Shown one piece after another: positions 5,901-25,142 of a stretch of DNA of 38,888 bases. This stretch comes from a virus, in the IMG/VR virus record IMGVR_UViG_3300033145_002215, positions 1 through 38,888 of that record; one strand, given 5' to 3'. The notes below the pieces were generated by a model. The model had not been told where the DNA came from and did no database searches. It was given only the letters and a program-made list of their open reading frames with translations. Within the stretch, counting starts at the first letter, position 1, and every line of letters begins with the position of its first letter. The translations under genes and the position numbers were made by a program.

Positions 5901-6248
5901 ACATTGTTCAATAATATTAAAACAATTTTCTTTACATAGATTAATAGTTTCTTTAGATGGATTTCCAGTGGTTCCATCTTTCAATATAGTTTGACATAAT
6001 ACAACATTAGTTAGTAAATAATTTAATTTATTTAATTTAAATTTTTCAAAATATTTACGAAAAGTTTTGCCACTTTTGCCTATTAAAGGTTGACCTTTTT
6101 TAACCTCATCCTTGCCTGGATTTTCAGCTATAAAAATTACATCAACTTTAGATAAATCTTTTTCACAATTAGTTTCTAAAATACATGAAGGAAATTCAAG
6201 TAATTCACATGCTGAACAATTAGCAAAAGAACTTTTTATTGAAATCAT
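2973..6248 (-). CDS. Family B DNA polymerase with N-terminal uracil-DNA glycosylase domain
   Basis: A 1091-residue fusion. Residues 1-195 form a family-4-like UDG: C11xxC14, motif AENPGKDEVKKGQPLIGKSG (41-60), two further cysteines (about 105 and 109) able to complete an iron-sulphur site, and HPS near 168. Residues 195-300 are an unrecognised linker. The 3'-5' exonuclease follows: DIE (about 333), NGFDLPYI (about 423) and YNRRDVELL (about 518). The polymerase has motif A DFTSLYPSNI (607-616), motif B KIFANTIYGILGN (740-752) and motif C TGDTDS (818-823). All catalytic acids are present, so both polymerase and proofreading should work. AAGGAT precedes the ATG. The UDG part could sense or remove uracil ahead of synthesis; its activity is untested. 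Confidence 0.93.
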   Translation of the reverse strand: MISIKSSFANCSACELLEFPSCILETNCEKDLSKVDVIFIAENPGKDEVKKGQPLIGKSGKTFRKYFEKFKLNKLNYLLTNVVLCQTILKDGTTGNPSKETINLCKENCFNIIEQCNPKLIVLMGASPMNAFKAGYFEMGNVGVTKKRGNFFKWSYKNKIYNIFVTVHPSFVNRDRSYEPIFESDLAQVAKSLTGNKTTKTISSNKTSGKKGIYYYKIPEKFYTNKYRLVDIQFLNKKREVLYIFRDVNNKKIYHKENDNYVAYFAPKKISPKKIVSYKELEQASVPYRDKIKLDPERTYEGDLKITTKHAIDYYIKNKEEAPIKDLNILYHDIELYSTKKGFPHPDKAEAAICLISYNYHKKCITYVIDPKSLLGKKNKNTIEIDKLNGEVIICQTEKELVNNFIKDLKKLNPDIVTGWHSNGFDLPYIYNRCKKIGISQNSISPFNECYFNSMYGICDIYGFTILDQLILYKTYTFTKKENYKLGTIGKLELNKEKLDSGKDFNELYETNINQYIRYNRRDVELLVDLENKLKHISLQNEVKIISKNCFKGSSSPMGMLDSLIVAYMKEKGLSSKNADIHSKGKKFEGAYVKEPRRGVHKYIVDFDFTSLYPSNILTYNIGLNSFVMKFKDTSLGYEFTYDIDKLPNEFEIILDPSFSKEVIKISKEDFIKKVKDQNLISTVSGCFFLPHDKEFSFYGDILKGLLSSRKIYKKKMFDCKISKNKDLETMYNTRQMSYKIFANTIYGILGNNVFRFFDIDLARTITLCGQEAIKKSIIYGNNFTEELKTRKKKEIIPLSKSEMYGDLTRDTKYVITGDTDSLFITLDDLLDKNKSDIEIIEDIHKYCDQIQNYLNKDIVQKIVEKHNVPLDRNRLDLKNELIIKTGLFLQKKQYAIWVIENEGQKMDKIISMGISTKRSDFSTLTKEYLNELLEIILKSQIFSINKVNEFVERKGKEISKAINSGKKEIGKPAGWGKNLKEYKKIPQNVIACQNFNLLEYEAFTTGDRGYLFKILGVDYDKAPSKVIMNYEKEFITKGKKLEVICIPDSELKLPNYYISDMKAMMRFHWSDRVNQFLEPLISIPTKILEF

Positions 6249-6259
6249 ATATATCCTTT

Positions 6260-6781
6260 TTATTGTTTTATTATTGAAAAGTTTTCTTCTATAAAATCTT
6301 TAAGTTTAATTTTTTGTTTCTTTTTTTTCTTTTTTAATTTAACTTTTTTTAATTTTTCTAATCCAAGAGTATTATAAATTGATTCTTTTTCTGGAGATTT
6401 TTCTATAATATCACAAAAAAGAGAAATATCATCATTTTTAAGTAAAGGTATTTTATCTCTTAGTTTTTTAAAAAGAACTTCTTTATGTCGATAAGGAAAA
6501 TAAACAATATCTCTTTGATTTATTTTAAAATTAATTACTGTTTCTTTAATAAAAATAAATAATTCTTCCTTAGAAATATATCTTAAATTAATATTATTAA
6601 AATAAGTATTCAAATAATGATTTAAAGGACCATTTTTTAAAAACATTTTAATAACATAAGTATGATTAATAGGAGAATTATATTTTAAAATATCTACATC
6701 TTTTGTGGCTTTTGGTAATGGTGATTTTTTAGACCCATCAAAAAGCCAAGAATTGAATACTTTATATGGAGATAATGCCAC
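6260..6781 (-). CDS. Unknown protein upstream of the DNA polymerase
   Basis: A 173-residue protein with a very lysine-rich segment (about 147-162, KVKLKKKKKKQKIKLK), which suggests nucleic-acid binding. I recognise no domain. The start is GTG at 6781 with AAAGGAAT from the end of the upstream glycosyltransferase. Its stop lies 11 bases before the polymerase ATG, so a role in replication is possible by position only. Confidence 0.7.
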   Translation of the reverse strand: MALSPYKVFNSWLFDGSKKSPLPKATKDVDILKYNSPINHTYVIKMFLKNGPLNHYLNTYFNNINLRYISKEELFIFIKETVINFKINQRDIVYFPYRHKEVLFKKLRDKIPLLKNDDISLFCDIIEKSPEKESIYNTLGLEKLKKVKLKKKKKKQKIKLKDFIEENFSIIKQ

Positions 6782-7946: not shown

Positions 7947-7963
7947 TTTTAAACTTTCCTTTT

Positions 7964-8015
7964 TTATAAGATTAACGCGAGAAAACCTCGTGCCCTTGTG
8001 GCCGAGGTAATTCAC
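7964..8015. repeat. Hairpin element A, copy 1
   Basis: About 50 bases, far richer in G+C than its surroundings, matching 19988-20039. The core is stem CCTCG/CGAGG (7986-7990 with 8003-8007), a bulged T, a second stem GCC/GGC (7992-7994 with 8000-8002) and loop CTTGT, preceded by GCGAGAAAA. The other copy has A-T in place of G-C at the base of the second stem, a compensatory change. On the minus strand it forms the leader of the zinc-ribbon gene, ending just before its ribosome site. Confidence 0.65.
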
Positions 8016-8042
8016 TTAACATTCTAGTCTTTTTGTGATAAT

Positions 8043-8174
8043 TCAGTCTTCCAACTTCCAAAGTTTTTCAAGTATTGTGAAAATATAACTTGGTGCTCCT
8101 TTTTTGAGCAAAAATTGAGAATCATATCTATTACTCAAATTATAATGATTTTTTTCATCTGAAATTAAATCCAT
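8043..8174 (-). CDS. Small unknown protein, 43 aa
   Basis: An ATG at 8174 preceded by AAAAGGG opens 43 codons (MDLISDEKNHYNLSN...) ending in TGA. The -1 frame continues past this stop straight through hairpin element A1 and reads ELPRPQGHEVFSR before a TAA. The gene may therefore be a shortened version of a longer small protein. No family recognised. Confidence 0.45.
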   Translation of the reverse strand: MDLISDEKNHYNLSNRYDSQFLLKKGAPSYIFTILEKLWKLED

Positions 8175-8233
8175 ATTTAAACCCTTTTATTATAAATTGG
8201 TTATGTTGAATATAAAACTTTCTGTTAATAATT

Positions 8234-8725
8234 TTAAATAATCCATTTATTATAACCTTCAAAAAATACATACTTTTTATCATATTTCCATAAACTTTTC
8301 TGACTTGGATAAACTTTATTTAATAACTCTTCTTTTTTCTCCCATTCTTTTAACTTATGTATATATGGTGCATTCATATTAGTATTATAAAAAATTACAT
8401 TCAATCTTTGTCTTAAAAGTTGTTCTCCAATGGCTCCCCATTTTCGATGTTTTGGGTGAATTTCATAAACAGGATCTGGAAAATATAAAGTTGAATCAGG
8501 ATTTATAAAAGATTCAGGAATAGTATTTAAAAAAAGTTGAATTTTAATTTCTGTGTGTTCTTTTAATTTAAGAGCTTCTTCTCTTCTTTTTTGATCAATC
8601 TCACCTACATAAATAATAGATGGATTTTCTTTTGTTAAAATTTCATAATTTCCAATAATTTCATCATCAGGATGAGGTACAATAATAACGTGACCTTTAA
8701 AAATTTCTTGTTTTGGTATTTCCAT
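8234..8725 (-). CDS. PIG-L/LmbE family deacetylase
   Basis: A 163-residue protein with the zinc-binding motif PHPDDE (about residues 17-22), diagnostic of GlcNAc-PI de-N-acetylase/LmbE metal-dependent deacetylases. Members remove acetyl groups from N-acetylated sugars; here the likely substrate is a nucleotide- or lipid-linked amino sugar, consistent with the phage's other glycan genes. It is shorter than typical members (about 220-240). AAAGGAG precedes the ATG, and a GAACAAA motif lies 23 bases upstream of the start. Confidence 0.85.
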   Translation of the reverse strand: MEIPKQEIFKGHVIIVPHPDDEIIGNYEILTKENPSIIYVGEIDQKRREEALKLKEHTEIKIQLFLNTIPESFINPDSTLYFPDPVYEIHPKHRKWGAIGEQLLRQRLNVIFYNTNMNAPYIHKLKEWEKKEELLNKVYPSQKSLWKYDKKYVFFEGYNKWII

Positions 8726-8747
8726 AATTTTATATTCTCCTTTTTAT

Positions 8748-8762
8748 TTTTATTGTTTGTTC
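8748..8762 (-). promoter_or_regulatory. GAACAAA motif upstream of the PIG-L gene
   Basis: Reads GAACAAACAATAAAA on the minus strand, 23 bases before the ATG. It is a slightly diverged member of the family at 711, 2816 and 22080. Confidence 0.35.
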
Positions 8763-8805
8763 TAAATAATTTAAAAAATATCTTAAAAAAATTTAAAAAT
8801 GATTA

Positions 8806-8820
8806 TTCTATATATATTAA
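8806..8820 (+). promoter_or_regulatory. TTCTATATATATTAA motif
   Basis: Shares the 13-mer TCTATATATATTA with 15067, 22214, 22773 and 26861; all precede plus-strand genes. The copy at 22213 also shares the following TTTATGAA. TATATT could serve as a -10 box. The 8726-9085 gap otherwise holds the small ORF and hairpin element B1 listed below. Confidence 0.4.
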
Positions 8821-8823
8821 TTT

Positions 8824-8973
8824 ATGAATAAGAAAAAATATTTGGATAATTTTTTTATAACAATGAACAAATATAATATAAAAGGAGATACTATAAAAAC
8901 ACCACGAGATAAATATTTAAATGATCCTTATTATAATTCACTTGTAAATACTTTAGTGAAATATTTACAATAA
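8824..8973 (+). CDS. Small unknown protein, at most 49 aa, possibly decayed
   Basis: The frame runs from ATG 8824 (or ATG 8863) to TAA 8973. A strong AAAGGAG at 8881-8887 points instead to codon 8893, which is ATA, so the original start may have been lost by one base change. The last residues (PYYNSLVNTLVKYLQ) resemble FYYNPLMEKQRKYKVLQ in the frame before element B2 (24343). Hairpin element B1 starts immediately after the stop, and the same frame continues through it. Confidence 0.4.
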   Translation: MNKKKYLDNFFITMNKYNIKGDTIKTPRDKYLNDPYYNSLVNTLVKYLQ

Positions 8974-9017
8974 ATTCCCAGAGAAAGCCAGGAAGCTTTA
9001 GCACCTGGAACGTTCAC
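8974..9017 (+). repeat. Hairpin element B, copy 1
   Basis: Forty-four bases identical to 24343-24386 while both flanks have diverged. Predicted fold: CCAGG (8988-8992) with CCTGG (9004-9008), and an inner GC/GC pair around loop TTTA. The 5' side carries GAGAAAG and the 3' side GTTCAC. About half G+C in a very AT-rich region. Read in frame with the upstream ORF it encodes IPRESQEALAPGTFT, with codons unlike the neighbourhood. Confidence 0.65.
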
Positions 9018-9085
9018 TTTAAAACATTAGAATAAAAATGAAAAATAAATTGTTAATATAACACAAATTAAAGGAGAAAGTAAAA

Positions 9086-9631
9086 ATGAAAACAAAACCA
9101 TGTGAAAAAGAAAAAGTAACAATAGGAGATTTAGAAGGAGTGTGTGGGTGTAATAAAATTGCGTGCCCAAAAGAGATAGCGACTAAATTGATTAAAGATC
9201 GTCAGCTTTATGGGAACCGTATGGGAATTAATGATGATTTATGTAATACAAATTTAATATCCAAGAATTATTCACCAATGTTTATACGAAAATATAATGC
9301 AAGTATTTTGTCAAACTGGCCGCTTTATGTAAGTATGATCTGTGATGAGGATATTTCAGATATTGATCATGTTGTTAATGGTGCATTAAAAGCTTTTAAT
9401 GAAGCTGGGCTTGTTGAAAATAATATGCAGAATATGAGAAATCTAACTGGAATTATTTCTGAGACATTATCTAAATATTATAACAATAAAAAAGAAAATT
9501 GTGTAGAAGGAATCGCAGTTATACTTGCGATTGATAAAGCTTTCATAAGCTCGCTCACTGGCGATTACATGTCACATTTCATGTGCAGATTCGAACTGTA
9601 CTCAATTTTGAACATAATGCCTCATATTTAA
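9086..9631 (+). CDS. Unknown protein, 181 aa
   Basis: Starts at an ATG after AAAGGAGAAAG. The N-terminal fifth is cysteine-rich (CEKEK...VCGCNKIACP), possibly a metal site; the rest looks helical. I recognise no family. Base composition is visibly less AT-rich than its neighbours, with more G/C at third positions, which suggests recent transfer. It lies between element B1 and the homing endonuclease. Confidence 0.75.
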   Translation: MKTKPCEKEKVTIGDLEGVCGCNKIACPKEIATKLIKDRQLYGNRMGINDDLCNTNLISKNYSPMFIRKYNASILSNWPLYVSMICDEDISDIDHVVNGALKAFNEAGLVENNMQNMRNLTGIISETLSKYYNNKKENCVEGIAVILAIDKAFISSLTGDYMSHFMCRFELYSILNIMPHI

Positions 9632-9647
9632 TGTTTATGTTTTATGC

Positions 9648-9695
9648 AATCTCCTTATAAAGTATGAACAAATATTAAAACTTTATAAGGAGATT
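9648..9695 (+). promoter_or_regulatory. Perfect 16-bp inverted repeat enclosing the endonuclease ribosome site
   Basis: AATCTCCTTATAAAGT (9648-9663) pairs perfectly with ACTTTATAAGGAGATT (9680-9695) across a 16-base loop. The right arm contains AAGGAG, the ribosome site of the gene starting at 9703. In a long upstream transcript the hairpin would hide it. A transcript starting inside, for example from the loop motif GAACAAATATTAAAA at 9666, would leave it free. T4 I-TevI is known to be controlled this way. Confidence 0.75.
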
Positions 9696-9702
9696 AACAA
9701 AA

Positions 9703-11022
9703 ATGGTAGAAAATATTTCTAATGAAAAACATATTTGTGATTATGGTTGTGGACAAGAAGCTCATTATCAATTCAAAAGTGGAAAATGGTGTTGTTCAAA
9801 ATCTCAAAATTCTTGTCCATCAAAAAAAGAAAGATGCAGAATTGCTGCGACCGGAGTAAAACATAAACTTGCTTTACCAATAGAAACTAATAAAATTTGT
9901 TCATTTGGATGCGGACAACGGGCAAAATTTAAATATAAAAGTGGAGCATATTGTTGTTCAGATGATTGGCATAGATGTCCCGCTAAACATGAAGAACTTT
10001 CTCAAAGAAGTACAAAAATTTGGTCAGATTTAGATCTAAGAAAAAGATTAAGTAAAAATCAAAGAAGAGATTTATTTGCAGTTGCAATACCGGTTTTAGA
10101 AAATGATAAAAAATGTTTTTATTGTGGAGAAAAAGCTAATTTTTGGTTTAAAACAAATGATAAATATTGTTGTGCTGATAGAATAGAACGATGCCCATCT
10201 ATGAGAAAAGAAATATCTATCAGAAGTAAAAAATTATGGAAAGATGAAAATTTTAGAAAAAAAGTAATGGAATCTCAAGATTATAAAGATCCTGAAAGAA
10301 GAAAGAAAATAGGGGAAGCAAATAAAAAATGGGCAAAAAATAATCCAGAAAAATGTAAAGAAAGAGCAATAAAATCAGCTAAAACAAAGGGCCCTTGGAC
10401 AGAAGAAGAAAGAGAAAAATTTAGAAAAAGGTTACTCGGAAAAACAAGAATTGAATTATATGGTAAAGAAAAAGCTGAAAAAATAAGGTTTGCAATTTAT
10501 GTTAAAGTGGTAGGAAGAAAAAGAAAATTCCCAATGTCTGCAGAAACTCGAAAGAAGATGTCCAATGCAAAAAAAGAACATTGGAAAGATCCAAATAGTT
10601 CATATAATTCAAAACAATTCAGAGATAAAAAATCAGAAGAATCTAAAAAATGTTGGATGGATCCAGAATATAGTAAAAAAATACAAAAAGGTCTTCATAA
10701 TAGTCCTAACAAATTAGAAAGTTTATTAATAAAAATTTTTAAAGATTTAAATTTAAATTATGAATTTGTTGGTGATTGGTCATTAAATATAGGTGGACGA
10801 AATCCAGATTTTGTAAATTATGAATCGAAAAAATTAATAGAACATTTTGGTGTATATTATCATGATACAATTGTTAAATTATCAAGAGAAAAACATGAAA
10901 AAGAAAGAATAGAACATTTTAAAAAATATGGTTATAAAACTCTTATTATATGGGAAAATGAATGGCAAAATATTGAAAAAATGAAAAAGAAAATCTTAAA
11001 ATTCAATTTAGATAAAATATAG
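9703..11022 (+). CDS. Homing endonuclease with zinc modules and C-terminal Vsr-like (EDxHD) nuclease
   Basis: A 439-residue protein. Three cysteine modules lie near residues 11-42, 65-96 and 125-155, followed by basic NUMOD-like helices (about 165-320, including SAETRKKMSNAKKEHW). The C-terminal domain (about 335-439) matches Vsr-like free-standing endonucleases: NKLESLL with the first acidic residue, GGRNPDF, LIEHFGVYYHD and a final IIWENEW. This is the EDxHD pattern seen in I-Bth0305I. The zinc modules are the same as those in the HNH endonucleases here, joined to an unrelated nuclease. The ribosome site is in the hairpin at 9648-9695. Confidence 0.87.
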   Translation: MVENISNEKHICDYGCGQEAHYQFKSGKWCCSKSQNSCPSKKERCRIAATGVKHKLALPIETNKICSFGCGQRAKFKYKSGAYCCSDDWHRCPAKHEELSQRSTKIWSDLDLRKRLSKNQRRDLFAVAIPVLENDKKCFYCGEKANFWFKTNDKYCCADRIERCPSMRKEISIRSKKLWKDENFRKKVMESQDYKDPERRKKIGEANKKWAKNNPEKCKERAIKSAKTKGPWTEEEREKFRKRLLGKTRIELYGKEKAEKIRFAIYVKVVGRKRKFPMSAETRKKMSNAKKEHWKDPNSSYNSKQFRDKKSEESKKCWMDPEYSKKIQKGLHNSPNKLESLLIKIFKDLNLNYEFVGDWSLNIGGRNPDFVNYESKKLIEHFGVYYHDTIVKLSREKHEKERIEHFKKYGYKTLIIWENEWQNIEKMKKKILKFNLDKI

Positions 11023-11039
11023 AAAGGAAATGTAAAATA

Positions 11040-11300
11040 ATGTCATATAAAATAAAAGAAATTAAAATGTTTAAATGTAAAAAATGTAATAAAATATATG
11101 AAGATTTAAAAACTGCAGAAAATTGTTTTAATAAACATGCTATTTCTGATAATTTAGAAATTATAAAAACTATTTGGAATTCTTCTTTTAATTTAAGATT
11201 CCCCGGAGAAATATTTATTCAAGATAAAAGTTTTTCTGGAATTTTAGCTCAATATAAATTAATTGATAGTGGAGCTATTGAATTTAAAAAGGAGAATTAA
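11040..11300 (+). CDS. Small zinc-finger protein
   Basis: An 86-residue protein with a short finger MFKCKKCNKIYEDLKTAENCFNKH (split here as CKKCNK...NCFNKH), a C2CH-like pattern near the N-terminus. The remainder is unassigned. GAAAGGAAA lies upstream of the ATG at 11040. The stop is directly followed by the pyrE ATG, and GGAG in its last codons serves pyrE, so the two are coupled. Function unknown. Confidence 0.65.
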   Translation: MSYKIKEIKMFKCKKCNKIYEDLKTAENCFNKHAISDNLEIIKTIWNSSFNLRFPGEIFIQDKSFSGILAQYKLIDSGAIEFKKEN

Positions 11301-11876
11301 ATGAACTACGAAGAATTTTTAATCGATAATAATATAATCAAAAAAGGTCATTTCTTTCTATCATCAGGTCAACATTCTGATACATATATTAACAAAGATT
11401 CAATTTTTTGTAACCCATATGTATTTCATAAAATTGTTCATAAAATTGCTAAATTAACAATTTCATTTAAATATGATATAATCACAGGTCCAGCAGTTGC
11501 TGGTGCTATTTTAGCTGCTCCAGTTTCAATCATTCTTAGTAATAAAAAATTTGTATATCCAGAAAAATTTAAATCAAATGATAATATTGATTACATGTGT
11601 TTTAGACGTGGATATGATAAAATTATTAAAAACCAAAAAATTTTAATTATTGAAGATATAATTACAACTGGTTCTTCAGTTATTAAAACTATGAATTCTA
11701 TTTGTAATTTAGGTGGATCTGTTGCAGGAATTATTTGTATCTGGAATAGAACTAATTGGAAACCTGATAATAATATTAAAATTGAATCTATTATCAATAA
11801 ACAAGTTGAATCCTGGGTTAAAAATGAATGTCCTTTATGTTCAAAAAATATTCCTTTAACTGACCCTAAAAAATAA
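11301..11876 (+). CDS. pyrE: Orotate phosphoribosyltransferase
   Basis: Joins orotate to PRPP to give OMP in UMP synthesis. The 191-residue protein has GHFFLSSGQHSDTYINKD at the N-terminus, DIITGPAVAGAILAAP, and the PRPP-binding IIEDIITTGSS (about 114-124). The end, CPLCSKNIPLTDP, is the tail typical of bacterial PyrE of this branch. It lies in the same plus-strand run as pncB, and prs at 15195 can provide the PRPP. No pyrF is visible here, so OMP decarboxylation would rely on the host. Confidence 0.9.
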   Translation: MNYEEFLIDNNIIKKGHFFLSSGQHSDTYINKDSIFCNPYVFHKIVHKIAKLTISFKYDIITGPAVAGAILAAPVSIILSNKKFVYPEKFKSNDNIDYMCFRRGYDKIIKNQKILIIEDIITTGSSVIKTMNSICNLGGSVAGIICIWNRTNWKPDNNIKIESIINKQVESWVKNECPLCSKNIPLTDPKK

Positions 11877-11914
11877 ATTTTTAAATTCAATGTGAATTAA
11901 TTAAGGAGATTATT

Positions 11915-12781
11915 GTGATAGATTTTCAAAAAGATCCAAGTGATGAATGTAAAAATTTTGTTATTCCTGGTGTTCAACATAAATATGAACCTACAGTTTT
12001 GATTTTAACTACAAATAAATGTTTTCAATATTGTACACATTGTTTTAGAAAAAGAAATTTTGATAAGGATGAAGAAATTTGTAAAGATGAAAATTATAAA
12101 AAAGTTTTTGAATATATAAGTAATCATTCAAAAATTTCAAATATTCTTTTAAGTGGGGGTGACCCATTAACATTACCAACAAAAAAATTAAAATATATTA
12201 TTGAAAATATTCCCAAAAATATATTAATCAGAATAGGTACAAGAGCTTTAACTTTTAAACCTGAAGCTTTTAATCCTATAATTGATATTTTAAAATCTCG
12301 AAATATTCAAATAGTTTCTCATATTAATTCAATTGAGGATTTGCAAAAAGATTCATCAATTAAAATGATTCATAAATTACGTTCTAATGGAATTAATATA
12401 AGAAGTCAAACTGTATTTCTTAGAAATATAAATGATACTCCAGAAAAATTAATTAATTTTTATAGATTAATAACAAATCTTGGAATTTTTCCATATTATT
12501 TATTTCAATGTCGACCTGTTACAAATAATGAAAAATTTGTAATTCCAATTATTGAAGGTATTAAAATAATTAAAGAAACAAGAAAATATCTTTCTGGGTT
12601 GGAAAAAAGTTTTAGATTTATTGCAAGTACAAAATTCGGCAAAATTGAAATTCTTGATTTTGATTCAAAAATAAATATTTTAATATATAAATTTCATCAA
12701 AGTAACAATATCAATTTAATTGATAAAGTTTTTTGTCAATATATAAATAAAAATGAAATATGGATTAATCATATAGATTAA
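11915..12781 (+). CDS. Radical SAM protein of the lysine 2,3-aminomutase (KamA/EpmB) family
   Basis: A 288-residue protein starting at GTG after AAGGAGATT. The cluster motif CFQYCTHCFRKR (CxxxCxxC) is near residue 36, followed by ILLSGGDPLTLP as in KamA/EpmB. RIGTRAL and HINSIEDL also match that family. The lysine in STKFGKIEI near the C-terminus is a candidate for the PLP-binding lysine. KamA makes beta-lysine and EpmB acts on elongation factor P lysine; the short length is closer to EpmB (about 340) than KamA (about 410). The substrate is not provable from sequence. Confidence 0.82.
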   Translation: MIDFQKDPSDECKNFVIPGVQHKYEPTVLILTTNKCFQYCTHCFRKRNFDKDEEICKDENYKKVFEYISNHSKISNILLSGGDPLTLPTKKLKYIIENIPKNILIRIGTRALTFKPEAFNPIIDILKSRNIQIVSHINSIEDLQKDSSIKMIHKLRSNGINIRSQTVFLRNINDTPEKLINFYRLITNLGIFPYYLFQCRPVTNNEKFVIPIIEGIKIIKETRKYLSGLEKSFRFIASTKFGKIEILDFDSKINILIYKFHQSNNINLIDKVFCQYINKNEIWINHID

Positions 12782-12796
12782 AAAAGGAAAAAAATA

Positions 12797-13336
12797 ATGT
12801 CAGAAATTCTTAAAAAAATTAAGCAAGATCTTTCAGAAGCAATGAAAAAGGAAATTAAATCAAGAAAACAAGGTTGGGATATAGATTCAAATAGTTTTAT
12901 AATTAATCAAAAAGAAGTTTCAAGGTTTATTATTAGTATGATTCCTCAATTAGGAATAAAACTTGATAAAGTTTCAGATGAAGATATTATTAAACTTTTA
13001 AAAATATATATTAAAAATGAAAAAATGAAATTTTTATATCAAAATAAACATATTAATTCAACTCATATAAAAGGTTTAAATCAAAAAGAAATAAGTAAAT
13101 TAGAAAAATTAAAACTTTATGAATTAGGAGATACTTTAACTTCTCAAACTATTAAAATAGCAGAGCAATATCTACCTTCAAAAGCTACAAATGGAGAAAT
13201 TATAAAATGGATTAATTCTAATATTGATTTTTCTACATTCAAAAATAAAATGCAAGCTATGAAACCAATAATATCTTATTTCGGATCAAGAGTAGAAGGA
13301 AATAAAGTTAAAAAAATAATAATAGAAAATTATTAA
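12797..13336 (+). CDS. YqeY/GatB-C-terminal-like protein
   Basis: A 179-residue helical protein. The start (ILKKIKQDLSEAMKKEIKSR) and the end (AEQYLPSKAT...MQAMKPIISYFGSRVEGNKVKKII) follow bacterial YqeY, whose C-terminal domain resembles the tRNA-binding tail of the GatB amidotransferase subunit. YqeY's role is not settled; association with tRNA is suspected. AAAAGGAAA precedes the ATG. With the aminomutase-like gene before it, it may form a translation-related pair (inference). Confidence 0.75.
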   Translation: MSEILKKIKQDLSEAMKKEIKSRKQGWDIDSNSFIINQKEVSRFIISMIPQLGIKLDKVSDEDIIKLLKIYIKNEKMKFLYQNKHINSTHIKGLNQKEISKLEKLKLYELGDTLTSQTIKIAEQYLPSKATNGEIIKWINSNIDFSTFKNKMQAMKPIISYFGSRVEGNKVKKIIIENY

Positions 13337-13350
13337 CTAAAGGAATAATT

Positions 13351-13520
13351 ATGAAAAAATATTTATTACAACAATATGTTGCATGTTTTGTTTTATGATT
13401 CCATTTTTTCTCGGAGAATATTTTTCATTTTTAAAACCTTATGAAAAGATTTTAATGTTTTGGGAAGGAATGGAGTATTATTCATTAAATATTTTTATAA
13501 ATAAGAAAGGAAAAATATGA
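13351..13520 (+). pseudogene. Small hydrophobic protein, split by a frameshift
   Basis: AAAGGAAT precedes an ATG at 13351 that gives only MKKYLLQQYVACFVL before a TGA. A second ATG at 13395 overlaps that stop (ATGA) and runs in the -1 frame as MIPFFLGEYFSFLKPYEK... to 13520, where its TGA overlaps the pncB start. Joined, they make a plausible 56-residue membrane-anchored protein. It is either a decayed gene or two tiny coupled ORFs. Confidence 0.45.
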
Positions 13521-14701
13521 TAATTAATTCAATACTTGATACTGATTTATATAAACTTACTATGCAACAAGCAGTTTTGCATCAATTTCCTAATACTGAA
13601 GTTGAATATAAATTTATCTGCAGGAATGAAAAAATCGATTTCAAACCGTATGTTAATAAAATATCTCAAGAAATTTTAAATCTCCAAAATTTAAAATTAA
13701 CTCAAGATGAAGAATTATATTTATATTCTTTAAGATTTTTAAAACCTGATTATATTCAATTTTTAAAATTATTTAGATTTAATCCTAATTATATTTTGAT
13801 CAAAATTGAAAAAAATGGGGAATTAAATATTCGTATAAAAGGTCCTTGGTTATATACAATTTTATTTGAAATTCCTGTTTTGTCTATTATCAGTCAAATT
13901 TACAGTATATCTCAATTTTTAATTGTAAATCCAAATAATAACAATAATGATAAAATTCTCGAACAAAAAATTGAACATATAAAAAATTATAACTCAACTC
14001 ATTCTTATTTACAATTTGCTGATTTTGGAACCCGGAGAAGATTTTCATATCAAGTACAAGATCAAATAATTCAAAAACTTCAATTTAAATTATCTAGCAA
14101 TTTTATTGGAACGAGTAATGTGTATTTTGCTAAAAAATATGATATAAAACCAATAGGAACAATGGCTCATGAATGGATTCAATCACATCAACAACTTAAA
14201 TACAGATTAATTGATAGTCAGAAAATGGCTTTTGAAAATTGGGTTAAAGAATATCGCGGAGATTTAGGGATAGCTTTAACAGATACAATTGGGCATACTG
14301 AATTTATGAATGATTTTGATTTGTATTTCTGCAAACTTTTTGATGGTGTTCGTCATGATTCTGGAGATCCATTTTTATTCGCAGAAAGAATGATTAAATT
14401 TTATGAGAATATGAAAATTAATCCAAAAACAAAAACAATAGTTTTTAGTGATGGGCTTAATTTTCCAAAAATGATTGAACTCCATAAAAAGTTTTACAAA
14501 CATATAAATGTTTCTTTTGGAATAGGAACCAATTTAATGAACGATATGGGAATTAAACCTCTTCAAATTGTTTTAAAAATGATTAAATGTAATGATCAAC
14601 CTGTCGCTAAAATTAGCGATAATCCAAAAAAAGAAATGTGTGAAAATAAAAAATTTCTTATATATTTAAAAGAAGTTTTTAAAAGGGGAAAAAATGTTTG
14701 A
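13517..14701 (+). CDS. pncB: Nicotinate phosphoribosyltransferase
   Basis: Makes nicotinate mononucleotide from nicotinate, PRPP and ATP in NAD salvage. The 394-residue length and collinear motifs match E. coli PncB: SILDTDLYKLTMQQAV at the start, DFGTRRRFS, FIGTSN, the AHEW histidine that is phosphorylated in PncB, RHDSGDP and FGIGTNLM. It is not a NAMPT, which is about 100 residues longer and lacks this layout. AAAGGAAAA precedes the ATG. With prs across the tRNA cluster, it gives the phage its own PRPP-to-NAD-precursor route; nadD and nadE would come from the host. Confidence 0.92.
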   Translation: MIINSILDTDLYKLTMQQAVLHQFPNTEVEYKFICRNEKIDFKPYVNKISQEILNLQNLKLTQDEELYLYSLRFLKPDYIQFLKLFRFNPNYILIKIEKNGELNIRIKGPWLYTILFEIPVLSIISQIYSISQFLIVNPNNNNNDKILEQKIEHIKNYNSTHSYLQFADFGTRRRFSYQVQDQIIQKLQFKLSSNFIGTSNVYFAKKYDIKPIGTMAHEWIQSHQQLKYRLIDSQKMAFENWVKEYRGDLGIALTDTIGHTEFMNDFDLYFCKLFDGVRHDSGDPFLFAERMIKFYENMKINPKTKTIVFSDGLNFPKMIELHKKFYKHINVSFGIGTNLMNDMGIKPLQIVLKMIKCNDQPVAKISDNPKKEMCENKKFLIYLKEVFKRGKNV

Positions 14702-14885
14702 GTTTTTATGGATTATAAGTCTTATTATTTGTTGCTGGATATTAAGAAATCCCATTATAGTAATTATTTCGATTCTCTTTTGGGTTTGTATTTTAATTTT
14801 AATACTTATTAATTCAAGTATAGCTTTTATCGTTTTATTGAGTATAGACTTATTTAAAAATTTTAAACAAAGATATATAAATTAA
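14694..14885 (+). CDS. Small membrane protein, two transmembrane segments
   Basis: A 63-residue protein that is almost entirely hydrophobic: two predicted helices (about 4-22 and 24-53) and a short basic tail (KNFKQRYIN). It overlaps the end of pncB by 8 bases; AAAAGGGG in pncB serves as its ribosome site. Short toxic or holin-like proteins look like this, but nothing specific supports that role. Confidence 0.6.
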   Translation: MFEFLWIISLIICCWILRNPIIVIISILFWVCILILILINSSIAFIVLLSIDLFKNFKQRYIN

Positions 14886-14886
14886 A

Positions 14887-14959
14887 TGGCGTGTGGCCCA
14901 ATGGTTAAGGCGCATGAATTTGAATCATGTTTTTGGAAGTTCGATTCTTCCCACGCCAT
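14887..14959 (+). tRNA. tRNA-Gln (TTG)
   Basis: A good cloverleaf: acceptor TGGCGTG/CACGCCA, D-arm with GCC/GGC, anticodon stem CATGA/TCATG with loop ATTTGAA (anticodon TTG), and T-arm GGAAG TTCGATT CTTCC. The CCA end is not encoded. CAA is heavily used in the phage genes, so it fits codon supplementation. Confidence 0.9.
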
Positions 14960-14973
14960 TTAATTTATAATTT

Positions 14974-15044
14974 CTGGGATAACGGCGAGGTGTCTACTGG
15001 GCTTTGGAAGCTTGGTGTGGTTGGTTCAACTCCAGCATCCCAGA
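14974..15044 (+). tRNA. tRNA-Pro (TGG)
   Basis: Acceptor CTGGGAT/ATCCCAG, discriminator A, T-arm GTTGG TTCAACT CCAGC, anticodon loop TTTGGAA giving TGG. The anticodon stem TGGGC/GCTTG has three G-T wobbles and the D-stem is only 3 bp (GGC/GTC). A real but degenerate phage tRNA; CCA is not encoded. Confidence 0.75.
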
Positions 15045-15057
15045 TCAATTAAATATC

Positions 15058-15097
15058 GATTAACTTTCTATATATATTATTATATAGAAAGTTAATC
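15058..15097. repeat. Perfect 17-bp palindrome between tRNA genes
   Basis: GATTAACTTTCTATATA (15058-15074) is mirrored by TATATAGAAAGTTAATC (15081-15097) with loop TATTAT. The left part contains the TCTATATATATTA motif. It could end the tRNA-Pro transcript or be a regulator site; the T-run after it is weak. Confidence 0.6.
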
Positions 15098-15103
15098 TTT
15101 CTT

Positions 15104-15175
15104 CTGGGATAATGACAGTGGTGTCTATTGAATTTGAATGATTTGATAAAGATGGTTCGACTCCATAATTCCGGA
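15104..15175 (+). tRNA. tRNA-like gene, probably Phe (GAA), degenerate
   Basis: A diverged copy of the tRNA-Pro gene: same acceptor CTGGGAT (pairing ATTCCGG), D-stem GAC/GTC, T-loop TTCGACT. The best anticodon stem TGAAT/ATTTG puts GAA at 34-36, but bases 37-38 are TG instead of the usual purine-rich pair, and the T-stem has one mismatch. It may be a decaying tRNA. Confidence 0.55.
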
Positions 15176-15194
15176 TTAATTTAAAAATTTTTTG

Positions 15195-16145
15195 TCACAT
15201 AAATAATTCTCTTAAAGATTTTCCTCTATGAATATTATCTATTACCTTACTTAAAATATTGTCACATCTAAGGATTCTTATTTTTGAATTCATTAAAACT
15301 TCATCTCTTGGTTTTATTGAATCTGTAACATAAACTTTATCAAAATTAGATTTTTCAATTCTTTCTAAAGCTGGGCCTGAAAAAACTCCATGTGTAGCAT
15401 ATACTATTATTTTTTTCGCTCCAGCTTCTTTTATTTTTTTTGCCGCTTTACATATTGTTCCTGCAGTATCTACCATATCATCAATTATAATAGCTACTTT
15501 ATCTTTTACATCTCCTAATAATTTCATTTGACTTATTTCATTTGGTTTATTTCTTCTCTTATAAATAATTGCCATTGATAAATTAAGTTTTTTTGCATAA
15601 ATTGAAGATCTCTCAAATGAGCCAGCATCAGGAGGAATTATAACAAATTCTTTATTTTTTGGACATATTTTATTTTTAATATGATCTAAAAAAATCTTAG
15701 ATGAATATAAATTATCAACTGGACAATTAAAAAATCCTTGTATTTGATTTGAATGTAAATCTATAGTTATAATTCTATCAACACCGACCGCATAAATCAT
15801 ATCTGCAATTGCTTTAATCGAAATTGGTACCCCTGATTTTGTCTTCTTATCAGCGCGTGAATATCCAAGATATGGAATTACTGTAGTAACTTTAAAACAA
15901 TCTGATCTTTTGAGAGAGTCAAGAATAAGAATCAATTCCATGAAATTATTATTAATATTTGGAGATGAAATTGATTGGATTACATAAATATCTTTTCCTC
16001 TCATGCTCTCATTTAATTCTATTCTAATTTCACCATCACTAAATTTAGAAACTAAAACATCAGAAAGATTTAATTTCAAATTGTTACAAATTTTCTCTGC
16101 TAGATTTTTATTAGAATTACCTGAAATTATTTTAATATTATTCAT
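15195..16145 (-). CDS. prs: Ribose-phosphate pyrophosphokinase (PRPP synthetase)
   Basis: Makes PRPP from ribose-5-phosphate and ATP. The 316-residue length is standard. Motifs: FSDGEIRIELNESMRG, IPYLGYSRADKK (cellular YARQDRK), DLHSNQIQGFF, KRRNKPNE and the PRPP loop IIDDMVDTAGT. All catalytic regions are present; the RADKK variant of RQDRK is a minor departure. It overlaps nothing but is 1 base from the NDT-like gene and heads toward the tRNA cluster. Its product feeds pyrE, hpt and pncB, all in this window. Confidence 0.92.
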   Translation of the reverse strand: MNNIKIISGNSNKNLAEKICNNLKLNLSDVLVSKFSDGEIRIELNESMRGKDIYVIQSISSPNINNNFMELILILDSLKRSDCFKVTTVIPYLGYSRADKKTKSGVPISIKAIADMIYAVGVDRIITIDLHSNQIQGFFNCPVDNLYSSKIFLDHIKNKICPKNKEFVIIPPDAGSFERSSIYAKKLNLSMAIIYKRRNKPNEISQMKLLGDVKDKVAIIIDDMVDTAGTICKAAKKIKEAGAKKIIVYATHGVFSGPALERIEKSNFDKVYVTDSIKPRDEVLMNSKIRILRCDNILSKVIDNIHRGKSLRELFM

Positions 16146-16146
16146 T

Positions 16147-16527
16147 TTATTTTTCCCTTATATATTCGAAACATTCATTAATATTATTAAAAAAAATATT
16201 CGTATGATAAGATAACCAAATATCTTGAAGAAAAATTGAATTAGAATTTATAACATATATTGGAATATTATTTTCATATGCAAATAATATTTCCATGATT
16301 GTCCCACACGTAAATTTTTTTATAAAAGCAACAAAAATATCAGATTCTAAAATTAATCTTTTATCCATTTCGACAATAAGATTTCTTCCGAGATCATGAG
16401 GTGTTTCTTTTAATGGATCTATTATACGAAATTGATTTTCATATTTTTGATGGACTTCTTTTCTATATTCAATTTCATCTGCAGACCCACCTAAATAAAT
16501 TTTTAATTTATTTGTTTCTTTAATCAA
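16147..16527 (-). CDS. Nucleoside 2-deoxyribosyltransferase-like protein
   Basis: A 126-residue protein with the NDT-superfamily layout: IYLGGSADEIEYR at the start (glycine-rich binding strand), RIIDPLKETPHD, a DKRLILESDIFVAF segment, and GTIMEILFAYENN with the glutamate expected for catalysis. Relatives cleave or exchange bases on (deoxy)nucleosides or nucleotides. Its start overlaps the DUF5664 gene by 4 bases, so the two are coupled. Exact substrate unknown. Confidence 0.75.
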   Translation of the reverse strand: MIKETNKLKIYLGGSADEIEYRKEVHQKYENQFRIIDPLKETPHDLGRNLIVEMDKRLILESDIFVAFIKKFTCGTIMEILFAYENNIPIYVINSNSIFLQDIWLSYHTNIFFNNINECFEYIREK

Positions 16528-16859
16528 AATTCCTCCTTTACTCTATCATCTTCTCCAATTTTAAATTTACTAAAATTTAACAAAGTGAAACATCCCCAAG
16601 CACAATGAGCCATATGTGGTAACCCACTTTCTGGATCATTATCTTCACCTTTCCAAAATGCCCAAGCGTGTCTCATTATAGCACCAAAAATTCTACACCA
16701 TTTAAATCCTTTCCTCCAATTATTATCGTCATATTTAATTGTTCCATATGTATATACTTTTCCTAACATTTCTAAAGCATAAGCATCTATAAGATCATAT
16801 CTTATTTTTCCTTCATCGAATTTAACTCCAACTTTATTTTTTTGAATTTTATTTGTCAT
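16524..16859 (-). CDS. DUF5664 protein (dATP/dGTP diphosphohydrolase N-terminal family)
   Basis: A 111-residue protein with the family pattern: VKFDEGKIRYDLIDAYALE near the start, YGTIKYDDNNWRKG, then IMRHAWAFWKGEDNDPESGLPHMAHCAW, where the His, Glu and Asp could bind metal. Members are common in phages and annotated as dNTP pyrophosphohydrolases; activity of this one is inferred. It overlaps pyrG by one base (start at its stop). It would trim purine dNTP pools alongside the nucleotide genes around it. Confidence 0.78.
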   Translation of the reverse strand: MTNKIQKNKVGVKFDEGKIRYDLIDAYALEMLGKVYTYGTIKYDDNNWRKGFKWCRIFGAIMRHAWAFWKGEDNDPESGLPHMAHCAWGCFTLLNFSKFKIGEDDRVKEEF

Positions 16860-18463
16860 TATTCTTCTCCCTTCTTTTCAACACAAGCTTTTATAAAACC
16901 ATAAAAAAGCGGTGCAGGCTTTTCAATTTTTGATTTCAATTCTGGATGAGCTTGAGTTGCTACAAAAAATTTTAAATTGGGTAATTCAATAAACTCGACT
17001 AATCTTCCATCTCGAGAAGTTCCTGAAAATATCATTTTATTTTCTTTTAAAATTGAATGATAATCAGGGTTAACTTCATATCTATGTCTATGTCGTTCTT
17101 CTATTATAATTTTTTTATAAAGTTTATATACTACACTTTTTTCTTTTAAATATGAAATACAAGAACCACGTCTCATTGTAGCCCCTTTTTCAGTAATATT
17201 TTTTTGTTCCGGAAGAATATCAATAACTGGGTAAGATGTATTTTTATCAATTTCTGTTGAATTTGCATTTTTTAAATTACATACATTTCGAGCAAATTCA
17301 ACTATTGCTAATTGTAATCCTAAACAAATACCTAAAAAAGGAATGTTATTTTCTCTTGCATATTTAATTATTTTAATCTTTCCTTCTGTACCTCTGGGTC
17401 CAAACCCACCTGGCACCAAAATCCCATCAACTTTATCTAAAAAAGAAACATCTTTCAATTTAGTTGTTTCAATCCATTTAAGATTAATTTTACATTTTAA
17501 ATGTGCAGAACAATGATTGAATGATTCTATAATTGAAGCGTATGAATCTTCTAATTCTGTATATTTTCCACACATAGCAATTGTAATTTCTTTTTCTGGA
17601 TTTTCAATGTTATAAATTAATTTTTTCCATTTTTTTAACTTTGATGAATTTGGTGAATTTTTAATTTGAAATTTATTATAAATTAATTTCGACAATCCTT
17701 CTTTTTCAAAATTAATTGGAATTTCATAAATAATGTTAGTATCTAATCCAGTTATAACAGCATCTTTTTCAACATTACAAAAAGTTGAGATTTTATCTTT
17801 GATTTTATCTGTAAGAATTTCTGAACATCTTCCTATTATTATATCAGGAATAATTCCTCGTTTCATAAGAAGATTTACACTCTGTTGAGTAGGTTTTGAT
17901 TTTTGCTCATCAGATCCTATAATGATCGGGATATAAGTTAAATGAACAAAAATAATATTTTCTTTTCCAATATCATTTCTTAATTGTCTAACAGATTCTA
18001 AAAATAATTCATTTTCAATATCCCCAACTGTTCCACCAATTTCTACTAATGTAATATCTGATTTTTCTTCTTCTGAAATTTTTATTATTTTCTTTTTTAT
18101 AAGATCAGTAACATGAGGAATAAATTGAACAGTTTTTCCCAGATAATCTCCTTTTCTTTCTTTTGATAAAATTTCATGAAAAATTTTCCCCATAGTTAAA
18201 TTCCAATGAGATTTACATGATATGTCCAAAAATCGCAGACTATGTCCAAAATCCATATCAACTTCTGCTCCATCTTCGAGTACAAATACTTCTCCATGTT
18301 CCATAGGAGCCATTGTAGAAGTATCTGCATTTAAATATCCGTCACACTTTATTGGGATTATTTTCAAATCTGAAGGAAAAAAACAACCAATTGACGCAAT
18401 CGCAACTCCCTTGCCTAATCCAGAAATTCCCCCTCCAGTAATTACTATAAATTTAGTTTTCAT
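16859..18463 (-). CDS. pyrG: CTP synthase
   Basis: A full-length (534 aa) two-domain enzyme that aminates UTP to CTP with glutamine. The N-terminal synthetase has TGGGISGLGKGVAIASIG and the metal site region around MDFGH. The C-terminal glutaminase has GGFGPRGTEGK, the nucleophile GICLGLQ, and the HPE of QAHPELKSK. The ATG lies at the stop of the upstream HNH gene, whose last codons contain the AAGGAG that serves pyrG. Confidence 0.95.
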   Translation of the reverse strand: MKTKFIVITGGGISGLGKGVAIASIGCFFPSDLKIIPIKCDGYLNADTSTMAPMEHGEVFVLEDGAEVDMDFGHSLRFLDISCKSHWNLTMGKIFHEILSKERKGDYLGKTVQFIPHVTDLIKKKIIKISEEEKSDITLVEIGGTVGDIENELFLESVRQLRNDIGKENIIFVHLTYIPIIIGSDEQKSKPTQQSVNLLMKRGIIPDIIIGRCSEILTDKIKDKISTFCNVEKDAVITGLDTNIIYEIPINFEKEGLSKLIYNKFQIKNSPNSSKLKKWKKLIYNIENPEKEITIAMCGKYTELEDSYASIIESFNHCSAHLKCKINLKWIETTKLKDVSFLDKVDGILVPGGFGPRGTEGKIKIIKYARENNIPFLGICLGLQLAIVEFARNVCNLKNANSTEIDKNTSYPVIDILPEQKNITEKGATMRRGSCISYLKEKSVVYKLYKKIIIEERHRHRYEVNPDYHSILKENKMIFSGTSRDGRLVEFIELPNLKFFVATQAHPELKSKIEKPAPLFYGFIKACVEKKGEE

Positions 18464-19501
18464 TCATTTTTTCTCCTTTCTATATTTTCTCTCACAAATT
18501 AATTTTGCCAAAGCTCCAGTTGAACAATCTCCTTGATGTCCAATTTTCAAATGACAATTGTTTCCTTTTCCAAATCCACATAAAACCCATCCGTTAATTG
18601 GATCTAAAGCCATCTCAGGGTGCGTTTTCTGAGGCATTTCATGATGGACAGATAATTCATCTATATTTGTATTTCCACAAATTTCACATTGTAACTTTCC
18701 ATATTCTTCTATATTTCTTTTAAGAACTTCTTGTCTCCAGATTTCAGTTCCTTCTTGATTTAAGTTTTCTGGAATATGTCCAGCATTTATTAGATCTTGT
18801 TTCATAAATTGTTTTGCTGTTTTTCCATAAAGAATGCATTCATCTTTACATTTTTGAGAACAATAAAAATATGACCCATCATTTCCATTCTCAGATTCTA
18901 ATTGTCTTATTCTTTCATAAATTTGAGTATAAGAAAGAGTGAACCATCCACCTTTTTCTTTTGAATTTTTACAATTATGATTCTTACAATGTCCTTGAAT
19001 TTCTCCAGTTTTTGGATCCTCTCTTAATTCTTCAACTTGACAAAAAAATGGATGCTTTTCTTGCCAATCTTTAAGAATATATTTCAAACTTTCTCTTATA
19101 TTTTTCTTAGTTTCTTTAGAATGATGTTTTCCTTTAATCCATGGAATATGACCTTTTAATGATTCACTAATATTTTTTCTAGTTTCTATAGAGTGAAAAT
19201 TTGTTTTTCCTTTGCTTCGTGGAATTCTTCCTTTATTGGCTTTACCCATTTTTTTTCTAGTTTCTGTCGAGTAAATATTTGTTTTTCCTTTGTTCCATGG
19301 AATTTTACCTTTGTTCCCTTCACTCATTTTTTTTCTAGTTTCTAATGAGTAGGGAGGTTTTTTCTTTGCAGATTCACTTATTTTCTTTCTACCTTCTGGA
19401 CATCTTTCCCATTTCTCTTCGCAACACCACTTCCCATTTTTAAATTGATATTTAGCTTCTCTTCTGCATCCATAATCACATAGTTGTATTTTCTTTTTCA
19501 T
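18464..19501 (-). CDS. HNH homing endonuclease with zinc module and NUMOD3 repeats
   Basis: A 345-residue protein in the pyrG operon. Residues 7-35 are the cysteine module (CDYGCRREAKYQFKNGKWCC). Four NUMOD3-like repeats follow (SxETRKKMSEGNKG, IPWNKGKT; about 50-135). A second cysteine-rich part (about 155-225) leads to the HNH nuclease: CEICGNTN, LSVHHE and DPINGWVLCGFGKGNNCH (about 270-325). AATTAGGAAA precedes the ATG. The 3' end carries the pyrG ribosome site, so insertion would not uncouple pyrG. Homologous parts occur at 1-678 and 31613-32035. Confidence 0.9.
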   Translation of the reverse strand: MKKKIQLCDYGCRREAKYQFKNGKWCCEEKWERCPEGRKKISESAKKKPPYSLETRKKMSEGNKGKIPWNKGKTNIYSTETRKKMGKANKGRIPRSKGKTNFHSIETRKNISESLKGHIPWIKGKHHSKETKKNIRESLKYILKDWQEKHPFFCQVEELREDPKTGEIQGHCKNHNCKNSKEKGGWFTLSYTQIYERIRQLESENGNDGSYFYCSQKCKDECILYGKTAKQFMKQDLINAGHIPENLNQEGTEIWRQEVLKRNIEEYGKLQCEICGNTNIDELSVHHEMPQKTHPEMALDPINGWVLCGFGKGNNCHLKIGHQGDCSTGALAKLICERKYRKEKK

Positions 19502-19521
19502 TATCTAATTTTCCTAATTTA

Positions 19522-19545
19522 TCATTGAGAGATTTTTAATTTCAT
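19522..19545 (-). CDS. Possible 7-codon leader ORF
   Basis: AAAAGGAGATATT precedes an ATG that reads MKLKISQ and stops, 20 bases before the HNH gene. Upstream, TTGACT (19596-19601, minus strand) with TACAAT further on could be a sigma70-type promoter, though the 20-base spacer is long. It is either a leader peptide or a stranded ribosome site left by the endonuclease insertion. Confidence 0.25.
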   Translation of the reverse strand: MKLKISQ

Positions 19546-19642
19546 TATCTTAATATCTCCTTTTAATTTATTGTATCCTAAAAAATTATAAGATTAGTCA
19601 ACTTTTTCCCTATGTTCATTTTTTATAACAATCTCTTTTGTC

Positions 19643-19906
19643 TTAATTAAAAGATATTATAGATGCAGAAAAACCACCAACTCCAAGAAAGAAACCAAAA
19701 TCATACCATCCACCATTATTATATATGGCATATATTGCAGTTGATTCATTAAATAATGAAACTAACCATGCAAAAGGAAAAATTATTCCATGCCACAATC
19801 CATACCAAAAACCAACAGGTTGAATAGCATCAATAATTGAAATAGAAATACTTTCAGCACACCCAGACAAAGTAATTGCAATAAAACAAACTATTAAAAA
19901 TTTCAT
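19643..19906 (-). CDS. Small membrane lipoprotein
   Basis: An 87-residue protein with a lipoprotein signal peptide ending in LSGC (cleavage before Cys16), then tryptophan-rich hydrophobic segments (GFWYGLWHGIIFPFAWLVSLF and YDFGFFLGVGGF). The same layout occurs in a family of small bacterial membrane proteins of unknown role. GGAGAG precedes the ATG. Acquisition from a host is likely. An outer- or inner-membrane site cannot be decided. Confidence 0.75.
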   Translation of the reverse strand: MKFLIVCFIAITLSGCAESISISIIDAIQPVGFWYGLWHGIIFPFAWLVSLFNESTAIYAIYNNGGWYDFGFFLGVGGFSASIISFN

Positions 19907-19987
19907 AATTTCTCTCCTTTTATTAACACAAATAATAATTATCTGATCTGTGCGATTTGTTGTCAGATTCTAACGGTTGATTATATT

Positions 19988-20039
19988 TTATAAGATTGAC
20001 GCGAGAAAACCTCGTACCCTTGTGGTCGAGGTAATTGAC
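19988..20039. repeat. Hairpin element A, copy 2
   Basis: Matches 7964-8015. Stem CCTCG/CGAGG (20010-20014 with 20027-20031), second stem ACC/GGT (20016-20018 with 20024-20026), loop CTTGT. The outer pair of the second stem is A-T here and G-C in copy 1. On the minus strand it lies about 80 bases upstream of the lipoprotein gene and can be read as LPRPQGYEVFSRQSYKI. The rest of the 19907-20221 gap holds the broken small gene below and nothing else recognised. Confidence 0.65.
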
Positions 20040-20056
20040 AGGACATTAACCCCATT

Positions 20057-20221: not shown

Positions 20222-20667
20222 TTATTTAATTATCTCCTCATTAAATTTAAAATAAAGGCCGTCAACTATTTTCCCTGAATAATATTCAACTGTAACTCGA
20301 GTTTCATAAAACATCTGTAAAGATCTTTTTGAATCTTCTATCCATTTTTCATTATTTATTTTACTCCACTTTTTAAAAACTATAATCTTTTTAATTCCAC
20401 ATTGAATTATAGCTCGAGCACAATCTGTACATGGAAAACCGGAAATATACATAATACAATTTTTTAAAGAAACACCATGCAAAGCAGCATTATAAATTGC
20501 ATTCCTCTCAGCATGTTCCATCCAATAGTATTTTTCTGGTCTTTCTTGTCTTTCAGGAATATTATCAGTTAATCCTCTAACAAAGCTATTATAACCTGTT
20601 GATCTTATTTCATGATCTTCTCCAACAATAATTGCACCAATGACATAAAATATTTATCCCAATCCAT
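20222..20667 (-). pseudogene. dCMP deaminase, N-terminally damaged
   Basis: The normal start survives at 20667 with AAAGGAAAA and reads MDWDKYFM, as in bacterial and phage dCMP deaminases. The expected first helix is then missing, and the rest continues in another frame as VIGAIIVGEDHEIRSTGYN, PERQERPEKYYW and the zinc site HAERNA with PCTDC. The original frame hits a stop after 20 codons. The longest intact ORF begins only at 20521 (99 residues, HAE and PCxxC present). Either the gene is dead, or an internally started product is made. Confidence 0.75.
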
Positions 20668-22125: not shown

Positions 22126-22192
22126 TTCAAAATCTTATATAGATTCATCTACAATATATATTAATATATGAATTTTTAATTCATTTAAAGAA
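22126..22192. repeat. Intergenic repeat, long form, copy 1
   Basis: Starts TTCAAAATCTTATATAGATT and continues CATCTACAATATATATTAAT; apart from one missing A it matches 25074-25142 over about 67 bases. ATCTTATATAGAT is a near-palindrome. It lies between the divergent queC-like gene and the gene at 22303, so promoter or operator function for either side is possible. Confidence 0.6.
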
Positions 22193-22212
22193 TAATCATT
22201 TTTTAAAAACAT

Positions 22213-22720: not shown

Positions 22721-22757
22721 TTCAAAAATCTTATATAGATTTAACTACAATATATAA
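22721..22757. repeat. Intergenic repeat, short form, copy 2
   Basis: TTCAAAAATCTTATATAGATT followed by TAACTACAATATATA. It directly follows the T-run of the terminator, as copy 3 does at 25074, and it precedes a TCTATATATATTA motif and a plus-strand gene. Confidence 0.6.
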
Positions 22758-24256: not shown

Positions 24257-24444
24257 ATGAATCCTTCTGAAAATATTTCGATAATTGAATTTTATTATAA
24301 TCCGTTGATGGAGAAGCAAAGAAAATATAAAGTTTTACAGAGATTCCCAGAGAAAGCCAGGAAGCTTTAGCACCTGGAACGTTCACGAACAAGGATATGA
24401 TAGCGTTAAGAATAATGAATAAAAATAGATATAAACTTTCATAG
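24257..24444 (+). pseudogene. Remnant small gene interrupted around element B2
   Basis: From ATG 24257 one frame reads MNPSENISIIEFYYNPLMEKQRKYKVLQR and stops inside element B2 (TAG at 24368). A second frame reads IPRESQEALAPGTFT through the element and continues NKDMIALRIMNKNRYKLS to TAG 24442-24444. Joined by one frameshift they give a plausible small protein, related in outline to the frame around B1 at 8824-9034. The 24223-24486 gap holds nothing else recognised. Confidence 0.35.
24343..24386 (+). repeat. Hairpin element B, copy 2
   Basis: Identical over 44 bases to 8974-9017. It is about 100 bases upstream of the 3D-domain gene, in the same orientation relative to transcription as copy 1. 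Stem CCAGG/CCTGG with GAGAAAG on the 5' side and GTTCAC on the 3' side. Confidence 0.65.
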
Positions 24445-25073: not shown

Positions 25074-25142
25074 TTCAAAAATCTTATATAGATTCATCTA
25101 CAATATATATTAATATATGAATTTTTAATTCATTTAAAGAAT
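25074..25142. repeat. Intergenic repeat, long form, copy 3
   Basis: Begins right after the terminator T-run and runs into the last codons of the minus-strand glycosyltransferase (stop at 25134-25136), so the 3' end of that gene is formed from repeat sequence. Matches 22126-22192. If it is a promoter it would fire antisense into the glycosyltransferase. Confidence 0.6.

Follow-up and report, generated by a model that had tools for sequence, protein, structure and literature searches.

A 48-nt hairpin unit duplicated in a viral genome is very probably a terminal-only remnant of an IS200/IS605-family transposon

The IMG/VR virus record IMGVR_UViG_3300033145_002215 (positions 1 to 38,888; this whole 38,888-nt stretch is called the window below) contains two copies of a GC-rich hairpin, here named element A, and the question is what kind of element this is. 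The initial annotation described a repeat of about 50 bases (7964-8015 and 19988-20039) in the leaders of minus-strand genes, and took a compensatory base change in its stem as a sign of selection on the structure. The repeat is real, and comprises two direct copies of 62 nt (7962-8023 and 19986-20047) with 89% identity. When the 15-mer CGCGAGAAAACCTCG was searched with up to 3 mismatches, two matches were found in the window against 0.03 expected by chance, and two matches occurred in none of 100 shuffles. The stem is also exactly as described, with CCTCG, a bulged T, GCC or ACC, the loop CTTGT, GGC or GGT, and CGAGG, and the base exchange was confirmed, with G-C as the first inner pair of copy 1 and A-T at that place in copy 2.

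Folding of element A as DNA gave z-scores of -3.9 (copy 1) and -3.0 (copy 2). We aligned 22 hairpins, 15 of them distinct, in which 92.5% of the paired cells were indeed paired and both-side changes occurred at three pairs. Twelve cells were changed on both sides compared to 4.2 in shuffles, and the covariation score was reached by none of 500 shuffles, although the rows are related and represent few independent lineages, which limits this statistic. Selection on structure is thus supported, yet the structure concerned appears to be a single-stranded DNA hairpin recognized by a transposase and not a cis-acting leader RNA family (see below). Changes that break the stem were also looked for. Every stem in the transposase-linked copies was intact, whereas 5 of the 10 free-standing phage copies carried a mismatch (L007m, L016, L009a, L009b, and L027), and for that reason the hairpin seems to be under little or no selection within the phages. 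Mismatches were also present in the degenerate copy L025 and in L015.

A pattern scan for the hairpin identified seven contigs in IMG/VR and four more among genome contigs. The identical 22-nt hairpin was found next to the transposase gene tnpA (PF01797), accompanied by tnpB or iscB, in clostridial genomes and in two viral contigs. PF01797, the Y1 HUH transposase, lies beside the hairpin in L005, L008, L011, and L012, the last an IS of C. luticellarii, with a divergent TnpB behind it in L008 and L012, and with IscB in L005. A right-end hairpin of like design was present in L008, followed by TTCAC, and in L005, followed by TTGAC, and further left and right ends occur in the bacterial genomes that carry the linked hairpins. 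Because it adjoins TnpA with TnpB or IscB, and because right-end hairpins match it, the hairpin is identified as the subterminal one through which IS200/IS605 elements are recognized. The bulged T and the loop T that are signatures of IS608 (PMC2775950) are both present in element A.

In IS608, the guides AAAG and GAAT select the cleavage sites TTAC and TCAA (PMC5934647). From these two pairs we derived a pairing rule (c1-g2, c2-g1, c4-g4), which predicts AAAA for TTAT, GAAG for TCAC, and CAAG for TGAC. The sequences show all three, with 3/3 pairs at each type of end, TTAT-AAAA at left ends and, in full elements, TCAC-GAAG and TGAC-CAAG at right ends. In the phage copies, TTTAT is followed by an 18-nt stretch with AAAA at its end, then by the hairpin of 22 nt, and last by an 8-nt tail that terminates in TTSAC or in a sequence one base different from it. 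Their left part is a left end, as illustrated by L006, which shows such a left end with an outer stem, and their tail is a right end that is joined to it with nothing in between, so that one hairpin serves both ends. As listed in Table 1, the unit is exactly 48 nt long in both window copies and lies directly 3' of TTTAT, which is the target and stays outside the unit. The right borders that had been proposed from the repeat, 8015 and 20039, coincide exactly with the predicted right transposon end.

Table 1. Positions of element A, its parts, and element B in the window.
Feature	Position	Strand	Remarks
TTTAT, left cleavage/target site, copy 1	7963..7967	+	Found ahead of left ends, also of those next to TnpA genes
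Element A copy 1, left end fused to right end, 48 nt with a single hairpin	7968..8015	+	48-nt unit shared with other phage contigs; relatives have clean empty sites
AAAA guide 5' of hairpin foot, copy 1	7982..7985	+	Matches TTAT by the IS608 code (PMC5934647)
Hairpin CCTCG-T-GCC-CTTGT-GGC-CGAGG, copy 1	7986..8007	+	Bulged T at 7991
TTCAC, right-end type cleavage sequence, copy 1	8011..8015	+	Right ends of the IS copies L008, L012, L052 finish identically
TTTAT, left cleavage/target site, copy 2	19987..19991	+	
Element A copy 2, 48-nt fusion	19992..20039	+	Guide AAAA 20006-20009; hairpin 20010-20031
TTGAC, right end, copy 2	20035-20039	+	TTGAC right end also in L005, L060
Element B copy 1	8965..9017	+	TTTAC target, guide AAAG, hairpin CCAGG-AAGCTTTAGCA-CCTGG, end TTCAC
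Element B copy 2	24334..24386	+	TTTAC just left of the 44-nt core of this copy

Both window copies are intergenic. The initial annotation correctly placed them upstream of short minus-strand open reading frames (ATG at 7948 and 19906), a position that fits insertion between genes, and we read them as intergenic insertions and not as leader RNA. Protein coding by element A is unlikely, since all sites that can be read on both sides are intergenic; among the sites examined, one right end overlaps a stop codon.

Copies of the 48-nt phage type were present in the phage contigs G001/G002/G005, G004, and G007/G009, with a more divergent one in L015. At two loci, near-identical phage contigs differ by the clean presence or absence of the unit. 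L003 and L007 are filled, and the near-identical L004 is empty (TTTTTATAGAACG), with the canonical TTTAT| junction; the unit is thus situated 3' of a fixed T-rich site, TTTTTAT|AGAACG, without target duplication. Since the flanks of L007 and L004 are 100% shared and that of L003 differs, the simplest reading of these alignments would be that L004 has lost the unit. Distant relatives of the L007 neighbour gene carry no element. In L003, a radical SAM gene (5558-6764), located among tail-region genes, is flanked by two oppositely oriented 48-nt units and could be cargo. At the second locus, G007 is filled and G009 is empty (AGGTTCACTTTAGC), the difference being the 48-nt unit. The empty site in G009 is non-canonical, since it has kept TTCAC and not the TTTAT expected from excision by TnpA, and either slippage over GTT removed the unit or the unit entered by a route that keeps TTCAC. 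The distant relative G004 lacks the unit at this site, and its gene there ends with TGA, at the same codon. No relatives of the window proteins were found in IMG/VR, so the polymorphism is known from relatives and not from an empty site for the window copies.

These data make it very probable that element A is what remains of an IS200/IS605-family transposon, a non-autonomous unit of the terminal-only kind (PATE). Its ends are fused via one palindrome, it is too short for a gene, and its borders follow from presence and absence in relatives. Neither TnpA nor TnpB is encoded in the window record, and each copy has one hairpin only, so it is not an autonomous IS200/IS605 element with its own tnpA and two end hairpins. 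The left and right hairpins are direct repeats of each other, and a deletion between them would have given rise to the unit. The hairpin presumably folds in single-stranded DNA during replication and would be selected as the binding site of the HUH/Y1 transposase TnpA, which, supplied from elsewhere by the host or a co-infecting element, may have placed and sometimes removed the phage copies; alternatively, these copies may be scars left when a longer IS lost its core.

The latter scenario, with a full IS once present at each locus, its core lost by recombination between the hairpins, and later losses due to slippage at short flanking repeats, has in our opinion close to an even chance of being correct. 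Microhomology is present at the two empty sites, ATA in L004 and GTT in G009, and L058 is an independent left/right fusion, the only one in a Bacillota MAG genome in which left-end hairpins with TnpA, as well as a right-end hairpin, are present too. Core deletion via repeats has moreover been documented in Haloquadratum (PMC3119063). However, many independent full insertions and deletions would be required, and a full parent IS with a TTGACGCG-type left end was not found in phage contigs or elsewhere, L006 being such a left end only. The absence of this parent from viral contigs, the approximately eight distinct loci in several phages that have the 48 nt and nothing else in common, and the two presence/absence polymorphisms can also be taken to mean that the 48-mer itself is mobile, with TnpA acting in trans by cutting TTTAT and TTSAC around a single hairpin and moving the unit among phages. 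From such comparisons this is a real possibility, if one to which we give less than even weight, since the non-canonical G009 junction does not agree with it, TnpA dimers act on two hairpins (PMC5934647, PMC7290912), and AAAA, the sole guide, agrees with the left site but not with TCAC or TGAC, which leaves self-excision of the 48-mer unexplained. More tentatively still, and with some doubt, a gene-free DNA of 48 nt with one hairpin might be a genuine transposable element that TnpA in trans carries from one phage genome to another. If so, few mobile DNAs would be smaller, and its right end would have to be cut without a matching guide. The other phage records with 48-nt units contain no TnpA, and these may be fragments. 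Among the 391 and 149 genomes searched, none had the 48-nt phage type as a host copy, and other matches there were set aside as showing no transposon ends by eye, and phage and plasmid collections gave short chance matches only.

It is improbable that the unit has been exapted as an RNA element, in which the hairpin on the mRNA strand, followed by UUUU, could act to terminate or stabilise transcripts. Where the neighbouring genes all run one way, the unit is always antisense to them, so that the mRNA has the hairpin and UUUU, and RNA folding gave z-scores of -4.5 and -2.5. On the other hand, the complete hairpin and tail were not among the hits of a terminator scan, half of the phage copies are mismatched in the stem, and the sites are few as independent cases, with an orientation that may reflect replication instead. 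The idea of a new structured RNA family, either leader or small RNA, has very little left in its favour, as the linkage to transposase genes, the guide code, and the polymorphism in presence or absence explain as DNA what covariation, fold energy, and the lack of an Rfam match at the gathering score had suggested. The earlier remark that no known RNA family has this shape holds in so far as Rfam gave no match above the gathering score for element A (in the window only a tRNA was found, next to weak matches far below the cut-off), but what lacks a match is a pair of fused transposon ends and not a new RNA.

The window contains a second repeat, element B, whose copies are identical over 44 nt (8974-9017 and 24343-24386) and obey an IS608-like code with TTTAC as target and AAAG as guide. 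TTTAC precedes both copies, and because it is rare in the window (0.0017 per position), this supports a like reading, based on code and repeat, of element B as a putative second transposon-end family of the same kind as element A. It folds less strongly than element A (z = -1.4 and -1.0), no relative linked to a transposase turned up, and an exact 22-mer match was absent from IMG/VR. Another repeat in the window, an AT-rich direct repeat of 65 nt (22129-22193 and 25078-25142, both copies 100% identical, and a related one at 22725), is a possible promoter or transcription signal. As for the genes, one minus-strand open reading frame (2973-6248) encodes a family B DNA polymerase that has a uracil-DNA-glycosylase-like domain at its N-terminus, and another (20222-20521, minus strand) contains a deoxycytidylate deaminase domain of which just the C-terminal half is present, and may be truncated or have a misread start. 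Several open reading frames share short cysteine-rich peptide repeats (202-705, 2909-2964, and 18464-19501), one with NUMOD3 motifs, and these repeats are also present in phage contig G004.

What seemed an orphan phage RNA is therefore better viewed as a likely transposon fossil or micro-transposon with precise borders. This would mean that phage genomes gather ends of single-strand transposition systems without the genes that belong to them, and the 48-nt units could be natural substrates for testing the minimal DNA needed by TnpA.

Among known systems, IS608 and ISDra2, IS200/IS605 elements with TnpA and TnpB or IscB, share with element A the hairpin with a bulged T, a guide tetranucleotide 5' of it, and insertion 3' of a T-rich left target, whereas element A has no genes, one hairpin instead of two, and no right-end guide. 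REP/REPIN sequences with RAYT (TnpAREP) (PMC3116915, PMC6006769) are likewise short intergenic hairpins with a 5' guide, processed by a Y1 enzyme. Element A does not belong to them, as it has AAAA in place of the GTAG guide, consists of single hairpins and not an inverted doublet, does not occur in high copy number, and has a hairpin linked to an IS-type TnpA with TnpB or IscB. In Borrelia plasmids, free-standing IS605 stem loops with compensatory changes have been described (PMC2775950), which are also intergenic transposon-end hairpins without a transposase; however, those are single left or right ends, whereas element A has both ends fused and defined borders. The nearest known case is that of the terminal-only PATEs of Haloquadratum walsbyi, 52-bp derivatives of IS605-type transposons made by repeat-mediated core deletion, of which one has six strain-specific insertions in its short form (PMC3119063). 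Like the 52-bp forms of HqIRS46 and ISHwa23, element A is about 50 bp long with its ends fused via one palindrome, and as in the Haloquadratum PATEs there is no transposase and presence or absence is strain-specific (PMC3119063). Element A differs in its length of 48 nt, in having clostridial full IS relatives and a guide code that was checked, and in its distribution over several phage lineages.
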